Shown piece after piece: positions 15,902-17,273 of a stretch of 64,000 nucleotides of DNA. The stretch lies in NCBI RefSeq assembly GCF_000733845.1, contig NZ_JPOI01000001.1:3225001-3289000 (forward strand), given 5' to 3'. A program made the translations under genes and the position numbers. The stretch is from Geobacillus vulcani PSS1 (GTDB taxonomy: Bacteria; Bacillota; Bacilli; Bacillales; Anoxybacillaceae). Within the stretch, counting starts at the first letter, position 1, and each line of letters begins with the position of its first letter. The notes under the pieces were generated by a model that saw only the letters and a list, made by a program, of their open reading frames with translations, had not been told where the DNA came from and searched no databases.

Positions 15902-16456
15902 TTATTTCACAATCCGGGCATCGGCAAGCGGCCAATACACAAGGCTCGCCTTGCCGACGACTTTTGACATCGGAATGAAACCGATATGGCGGCTGTCTTT
16001 GCTGAAGCGGCGATTGTCGCCCATGACAAACAAATGCCCCGGCGGCACCGTGCTCCGTCCGGTCAGCTCCTCCAAGGTGAACGATTCCGTCAGTGGCCCG
16101 CCGTCGGACAATTGCTTTTTATACTCGTCCAAATACGGCTCTTTATACGGTTTGCCATTGATATAGAGCGTATCGTTTTTGTATTCAATTCGGTCGCCCG
16201 GCAGGCCGATGACCCGCTTAATATAGTCTCTCCCTTCTTCGGCGTGAAAAACAATGATATCAAAACGGTGCGGCATGCCGATTTTATACGCCAATTTATT
16301 GACGATCATCCGCTCATGGTTATGTAATGTCGGCATCATCGAATAGCCATCAACAATGATCGGCGCAAAAATAAAGTAGCGGATGCCTCCGGCGAGCAAG
16401 ACGGCAACGACGATCGCTTTCATCCATTCACGCCATTCGCTTCTTTTTTGTTCCAT
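15902..16456 (-). CDS. lepB: Signal peptidase I (LepB/Sip type)
   Basis: This enzyme cleaves signal peptides from secreted proteins at the outer face of the membrane. The 184-residue protein has one N-terminal membrane anchor (near residues 12-32), the catalytic serine in GYSMMPTL, the catalytic lysine in DYIKRVIGLPGD and the MGDNRRFSKDSRHIGFI box. GGGTGGGTGGACA before ATG fixes the start; upstream codons fall in a structured spacer. The position between rplS and rbgA differs from B. subtilis, where no sip gene is found here. Confidence 0.95.
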   Translation of the reverse strand: MEQKRSEWREWMKAIVVAVLLAGGIRYFIFAPIIVDGYSMMPTLHNHERMIVNKLAYKIGMPHRFDIIVFHAEEGRDYIKRVIGLPGDRIEYKNDTLYINGKPYKEPYLDEYKKQLSDGGPLTESFTLEELTGRSTVPPGHLFVMGDNRRFSKDSRHIGFIPMSKVVGKASLVYWPLADARIVK

Positions 16457-16546
16457 TGTCCACCCACCCAAATCAAAGAGTTTGCAGTAGTATATAGATG
16501 CCATTGGAAGCTTTCCCATTTGCAGCTTTTACCGAGGATTGGATCG

Positions 16547-16674
16547 ACTGTCGGAAGACCGAACCACGCCGCTTCCAGGCCCATCGATGGGTCTGTGAAG
16601 CAGGCGGTGGTTCGGTCTTCCGTCACGCCAAGGCGTGACGGAGGCAAGCCACAGGCTTGCCTTCGACAATCGAA
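16547..16674 (-). other. Four-hairpin structured spacer upstream of lepB
   Basis: The 363-base gap between rplS and lepB has no credible gene. Its centre folds as a closed multi-branch structure on either strand. An outer 10-bp helix (TCGACTGTCG with CGACAATCGA, one wobble) encloses three hairpins. One has a 14-bp perfect arm (GAAGACCGAACCAC / GTGGTTCGGTCTTC), extended by inner helices around CCCATCGATGGG. The second is CCGTCACG / CGTGACGG and the third AGGCAAGCC / GGCTTGCCT. It could be an untranslated RNA, a leader element or a non-coding mobile repeat. I do not recognise it. Confidence 0.7.
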
Positions 16675-16765
16675 AATGGACAACCCGCTTTTCCGTCAAG
16701 GATCTGTTCCACTTCTTCGTTGCATCTTATATAGATCGCTACCGTACATCATCATTGACGGTAGT

Positions 16766-16796
16766 GAAAAAAGGAGCTTGAAAGCAAGCTCCTTTT
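16766..16796 (-). terminator. Terminator after rplS
   Basis: A perfect 10-bp stem AAGGAGCTTG / CAAGCTCCTT with a 4-base loop is followed by TTTTCAC on the minus strand. It ends the rpsP-to-rplS region before the structured lepB spacer. Confidence 0.92.
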
Positions 16797-16819
16797 CCAT
16801 TACGATCCACCGTTGTCCA

Positions 16820-17176: not shown

Positions 17177-17273
17177 CATGATCCACTCCTTCCACAGATG
17201 TTCATGCCAATGATCTCTCCATTGCAGCGGAACATCGTTTTCCGTCCTCAAGCCAACCGCTCAAGGTCACACA
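17177..17273 (-). ncRNA. L19 leader RNA (autoregulatory 5' UTR of rplS)
   Basis: The untranslated leader of rplS folds into two helices on the minus strand: CCTTGAGC / GCTTGAGG (with G-U pairs), then GATGTTC / GAACATC enclosing CAATG / CATTG. The latter ends just before the AAGGAG ribosome binding site. This fits the ribosomal protein L19 leader family of Bacillales, where L19 is thought to bind and repress its own translation. The family is named from position and architecture. Confidence 0.7.

Follow-up and report, generated by a model that had tools for sequence, protein, structure and literature searches.

The window analysed here, a 64,000-nucleotide stretch of the Geobacillus vulcani PSS1 genome, contains a dense cluster of hairpins between rplS and lepB, and the question is what this structure is. 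The initial annotation had offered two readings, a structured RNA in the lepB leader or a palindromic nonautonomous mobile element. The multi-hairpin fold itself is real. The minimum free energy of positions 16540-16680 was −97.7 kcal/mol on the plus strand and −92.8 kcal/mol on the minus strand, and shuffled plus-strand sequences gave −49.4 kcal/mol (sd 4.3). The z-scores were −11.1 (plus) and −11.2 (minus), and none of 200 shuffles was equally stable on either strand. An outer helix of 9 bp (P1), in which 16545-16553 pair with 16664-16672, encloses three hairpins. Hairpin I is long, with its apex around CCCATCGATGGG (16557-16617, recognised from inverted repeats and the fold), and is followed by hairpin II (TCCGTCACGCCAAGGCGTGACGGA, 16619-16642) and hairpin III (GGCAAGCCACAGGCTTGCC, 16643-16661). 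As a whole, the interior of the element is a single long and imperfect inverted repeat whose core forms a four-way junction. The flanks are also as had been described: a perfect 12-bp inverted repeat lies after rplS at 16769-16796, and it is present in 13 of 13 relatives, although the terminator scan reported no site in the whole stretch. Neither the promoter scan nor the terminator scan found a site within the element; the single promoter-like site was at 16778-16806 (plus strand), outside it. At gathering score, Rfam matched nothing in the window except the L19 leader (RF00556) at 17195-17238 on the minus strand.

A DNA search with the hairpin element gave many dispersed matches in its own genome. 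When these copies were aligned with their flanks, the similarity ran in both directions to inverted ends, TATAGATGC...GCATCTATA. A pattern search for the left end, allowing up to three mismatches, found 18 places in this genome and none for the reversed control; two of the 18 were reduced copies without the full core (L067 and L068). In addition, a covariance model built from 25 cores gave 31 matches at 20 distinct places, the other 11 being reverse-strand readings of the palindromes. Across the bacterial family, the model matched 31 of 41 genomes at E ≤ 1e-4. An accidental cluster of inverted repeats that belongs to no family, for which we found no supporting point, is ruled out by the 20 genomic places and runs against the family-wide matches, and we give it practically no credence. 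The initial annotation had named many scattered copies as the outcome that would make the element a mobile repeat instead of a lepB regulator, and by that condition it is a mobile repeat.

The repeated unit is larger than the hairpins. The initial annotation had placed the paired core correctly and had drawn the boundaries too narrowly, since the copy alignment, the ends and the empty sites define a mobile unit of 239 bp at 16493-16731 (plus strand, the orientation used for all alignments). Its terminal inverted repeats are TATAGATGC...GCATCTtATA. The left arm (16493-16544) begins with TATAGATGCCATTGGAAG and resembles the ends of IS630 group A, and the right arm (16673-16731) closes with ...CTTCGTTGCATCTTATA. 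Outside the arms lie the left (16491-16492) and right (16732-16733) copies of a duplicated target TA. The unit is thus a dispersed repeat with 20 core-bearing places, too short to encode a transposase. The orientations of the copies relative to genes in this genome were mixed, by a rough estimate based on open reading frames whose choice was visibly wrong at lepB. The longest lepB reading frame (15902-16519, minus strand) begins within the element; translation probably starts instead from the ATG at 16456 (MEQKRSEW...), which is outside it.

To see the site before insertion, the locus was fetched through rplS from all 14 genomes of the genus, including the own one. The element was absent between the repeat after rplS and lepB in 13 of 13 relatives. 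Thus, among the genomes seen, the insertion is private to the lineage of G. vulcani PSS1. The filled site reads GCAGTAG[TA]element[TA]GATCGC and the empty site GCAGTCG[TG]GATCAC, so the relatives carry TG, not TA, at the insertion point. Once a 2-bp duplication is allowed for, the filled site without the element is as long as the empty one. We also compared the joined flanks of ten other copies of the own genome with seven relatives. A 2-bp step was seen for L068 (CA), L004 (TG) and L070 (TG, with the right copy now TA), and the alignments of L060, L077, L067 and L012 showed no clear duplication.

The target duplication was examined further in 137 de-duplicated near-full-length copies, 93 of which had a profile match spanning both ends. 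Identical 2-bp flanks were found in 79 of these 93 copies (71 TA, 6 TG and 2 CA; some copies in the set are orthologous to each other, which makes these counts less than fully independent) and were missing in the other 14. Random re-pairing of the flanks gave a mean of 61.2 identical pairs, and none of 10,000 re-pairings reached 79. Even where the left flank was not TA, the right flank still matched it in 8 of 17 copies. Furthermore, the flanking target consensus is palindromic around C-TA-G (W-T-C-[TA]-G-A-W, WTCTAGAW-like). Both empty orthologous sites and a 2-bp TA target duplication, as expected of an IS630/Tc1-mariner-type MITE, were found, and insertion into TA with TA duplication is described as a hallmark of the IS630/Tc1-mariner group (PMC2170065).

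The terminal sequences agree with this group. DDE_3 (PF13358) transposases were present in all 18 genomes searched. Ends of the group A type (TATA[CAG]ATGC...TTAAC) occurred at both sides, 1189-1202 bp apart, in 7 of the 30 IS630 loci examined (L182, L187, L188, L193, L194, L196 and L198). All six MITE ends (Geobacillus, A. amylolyticus G030, G032) scored best with group A. The left ends scored 18.4-21.6 and the next group 15.2, and the right ends were weakly group-specific (13.6 for A and 13.0 for B in Geobacillus; 13.6 for A and 13.4 for E in G032). All background 28-mers with scores of this height were either copies of the MITE or remnants resembling its left end. It is the first ~25 bases of the ends that are common to local IS630 elements. 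The MITE shares its terminal inverted repeats with an IS630-family element, with weak specificity at the right ends; inspection by eye recognised nothing of IS630 in the rest of the MITE. The DDE_3 hits of this genome (G000, 2 hits), of G030 and G032 (group A) and of G016 (group B) showed no IS630 whose ends are of the matching group. Thus, the mobiliser may have been lost there or may belong to another group, and it is from the ends and the target, not from a resident pair, that we infer a mobilisation in trans by an IS630 transposase.

Taken together, the ends, the 2-bp TA duplication, the empty sites and the dispersed copies identify an IS630/Tc1-mariner-type MITE. It is highly probable that the hairpins are the core of this 239-bp noncoding element, which moved in trans into a TA between rplS and lepB in the own lineage only. 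The palindromic nonautonomous mobile element of the initial annotation is therefore borne out by 20 dispersed core copies, an empty site in 13 of 13 relatives and a 2-bp target duplication. Points against this reading are the IS630 of the matching group that was not seen in these genomes, the weak group specificity of the right ends, the four other sites with unclear alignments, the 14 copies with unlike flanks and the TG of the relatives at the lepB site. In the mechanism that we propose, an IS630/Tc1-mariner transposase would bind the ~25-bp ends (TATAGATGCAA...), excise the MITE and insert it at a TA within a WTCTAGAW-like target, by which the TA would be duplicated. Such an insertion would have placed the MITE between the rplS terminator and lepB. 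Template switching of the DNA would then renew the pairing of the hairpins, homogenising the arms and flipping the loops, as the mutation patterns described below suggest.

The other reading, in which the lepB leader contains a conserved small or cis-regulatory RNA preserved for the fold of its transcript, has two points in its favour. The fold is very stable on both strands, and its pairs covary. In the 25-core alignment (25 of 40 listed representatives), changes on both sides occurred in 10 of 53 pairs (19 cells), shuffles gave 5.6 and 6.4, 11 of 500 shuffles reached 10 pairs, and slid controls gave 5-8 pairs. In the model-fitted alignment A3 (21 rows), they occurred in 32 of 53 pairs (93 cells), with 14.3 and 21.5 for shuffles and 9-12 pairs for slid controls, and 92.8% of cells remained paired; as A3 was fitted to the model structure and leans towards it, these pair counts are inflated. 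These two alignments were used for counting in place of a 128-row MAFFT alignment, whose gaps made the RNAalifold structure meaningless, and a first model alignment of 40 rows, which held reverse-strand partial matches, was left out.

However, an element that is absent at lepB in 13 of 13 relatives cannot be a conserved lepB leader, and it lies at 19 other places in its own genome. In addition, no Rfam family matched the element at gathering score (in a relaxed scan the core scored at most 18.3 bits, where the gathering score is 58). Moreover, the stem mutations can be used as a test of RNA selection. On one strand, C-to-T and A-to-G changes in stems leave G-U pairs and G-to-A and T-to-C changes leave A-C mismatches; for the other strand it is the reverse. 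Selection on a transcript would be expected to make one kind more frequent than the other. In 100 distinct Geobacillus-type cores, the ratio of G-U to A-C was 11:10 among singletons; variants present in at most 3 copies gave 40:33, and those in at most 5 gave 61:55. It was 90:137 over all variants, where shared ancestry dominates. The density of singletons was also alike in paired (50 over 106 positions) and unpaired (10 over 22) parts. Since G-U is not in excess over A-C, RNA pairing does not act as a filter on recent mutations in the stems, whichever strand is read. We therefore regard a lepB regulatory RNA as very improbable and rejected it on the empty site in all 13 relatives, the equal G-U and A-C counts and the 20 genomic places; this single copy might still have an incidental effect on lepB expression. 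This removes the false lead of a riboswitch-like RNA at lepB. It is also a warning that covariation alone can arise in palindromic mobile DNA without RNA selection, for which the counts of G-U and A-C are a simple control.

The loops of the hairpins tell more about how the pairing is renewed. Among 147 copies, hairpin II carried the loop CTTG 45 times and the reverse-complement loop CAAG 35 times; for hairpin III the counts were 41 for CTGTG and 30 for CACAG. Furthermore, in 4 of 14 groups of orthologous copies found by both flanks, a loop was present in both orientations (L033/L112; L032/L202/L038; L227/L238; L218/L231). The clearest flip was between L032 and L038, in which the loop differs as ACA and TGT and the flanks of 250 bases each were 99.6% and 99.2% identical. 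Template switching between the arms of inverted repeats is described to homogenise the arms and invert the spacers (PMC8604942). These known effects account for the flips and for a large part of the covariation, with no need of RNA selection. The alignment check suggested for the element thus did find covarying pairs, and with flipped loops and no excess of G-U, template switching of DNA fits them better than a selected RNA. Orthologous copies with flipped loops could be used as a natural assay for template switching. In some orthologous pairs (L254/L232, L218/L231 and L220/L014), the flanks are nearly identical and the elements differ at 41-69 columns; L254/L232 differ at 69 of 239 columns, and their flanks share about 95% identity. 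Such differences may also owe something to re-insertion, to conversion by other copies or to recombination between species.

The family of the MITE is spread widely. The highest number of matches was in G032 (81, both strands counted), and recent bursts are evident from copies that are almost identical within G030, G032 and G016. With 31 of 41 family genomes matched, its ends, target and empty sites are now defined. There were no matches in the 50,697 phage records searched, and 3 of 72,556 plasmid records matched. One of the plasmid copies (L283 on A. amylolyticus pDSM15939_2) lies within what is annotated as the end of an HNH/ENDO VII nuclease gene; part of the annotated protein may thus derive from the MITE.

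Two further repeats were seen. A repeat of ~100 bp (CTATATAGACTTCCATGACG...TTTTCAGGATAG) directly abuts five copies of the own genome at the TA end (L003, L005, L009, L013 and L016), three of them on the left side and two on the right. A different repeat of ~200 bp (TATATACATGCAACATGAAG...CATGTATATA) occurs at G000:C1:1123533 and 1241086 (L072 and L074); its ends match IS630 group A, and from its sequence it looks like an internal deletion derivative of a group-A IS630.

G016 (genus g4), which had 45 covariance-model matches, carries a related core with a second type of end. Its core is identical to that of Geobacillus at 83 of 141 aligned columns, and its best BLAST piece with the core of A. 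amylolyticus spans 37 bases at 84%. The outer helix recurs in it, and so do three hairpins, the long one with the apex CAGACAAATGAATTTGTCTG, with compensatory changes. Of 20 copies fetched, 19 had near-identical ends, and L345 had a diverged core and different flanks. Both ends scored best with IS630 group B (TATAxATTCAG...TTCCGACAT), at 20.0 and 21.6; the next groups reached 13.6 and 18.4, and none of 247 background sequences scored as high. As the G016 ends fit group B and the Geobacillus ends group A, related cores are carried by elements with ends of two IS630 groups. The ends may have been swapped between group-A and group-B elements, or may have diverged together with the transposase. 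A core common to two end types raises the question of what part the fold plays in transposition.

One answer would be that the fold is selected as a DNA module, for example as a single-stranded or cruciform aid to transposition or as a site for a host factor, beyond its upkeep by template switching. The outer helix and three hairpins were kept in G016 in spite of the low identity and the other end group, and the 92.8% of paired cells and 93 cells with both-side changes in the model-fitted set point the same way. Against this, template switching alone homogenises the arms of inverted repeats, the fitting of A3 to the model structure inflates the pair counts, and inserted copies decay freely. 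The core energies in the own genome ranged from −95 to about −35 kcal/mol, a spread that looks like such free decay. We thus think that selection as a DNA module is rather unlikely. A fuller version, in which a four-way-junction DNA core has stayed together as a module while the transposase changed and is selected as folded DNA, with hairpins as flip-flops that record template switching in thermophiles, seems to us slightly less likely still. In any case, for the IS630-type MITE favoured here, the fold is kept over long evolutionary distances, and the three-hairpin core, the flipping loops and the two end types are unusual.

As far as our searches of the literature go, this MITE family is new and its kind is already known; in the openly licensed literature we found no description of this repeat or MITE in Geobacillus. 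The following comparisons are by description only for RUP, the Correia elements and bcr1. RUP of Streptococcus pneumoniae is, like this MITE, described as a small intergenic repeat in many copies with IS630-like ends and insertion at TA, and its mobilisation in trans was proposed on indirect grounds (PMC3049150, PMC2229807). However, RUP is 107 bp long, and this MITE is about 238 bp with a three-hairpin core. The Correia elements (NEMIS) of Neisseria are likewise a MITE that has TA at its termini and is highly paired inside, and processing by RNase III is described for them (PMC2229807), but they belong to another genus and size class. Meanwhile, bcr1 of the Bacillus cereus group is presented as a folded, mobile-looking Bacillaceae repeat of ~150 bp (PMC2267715), similar to this MITE in these respects, and the title of the original paper calls it specific to the B. 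cereus group. Finally, ISY100-type IS630/Tc1-mariner elements are reported to insert almost exclusively at TA, which is duplicated, as in this MITE; ISY100 has 24-bp imperfect inverted repeats, and 30 bp per end was enough for transposition (PMC2170065). Unlike such IS630/Tc1-mariner insertion sequences, the MITE between rplS and lepB carries no transposase gene.
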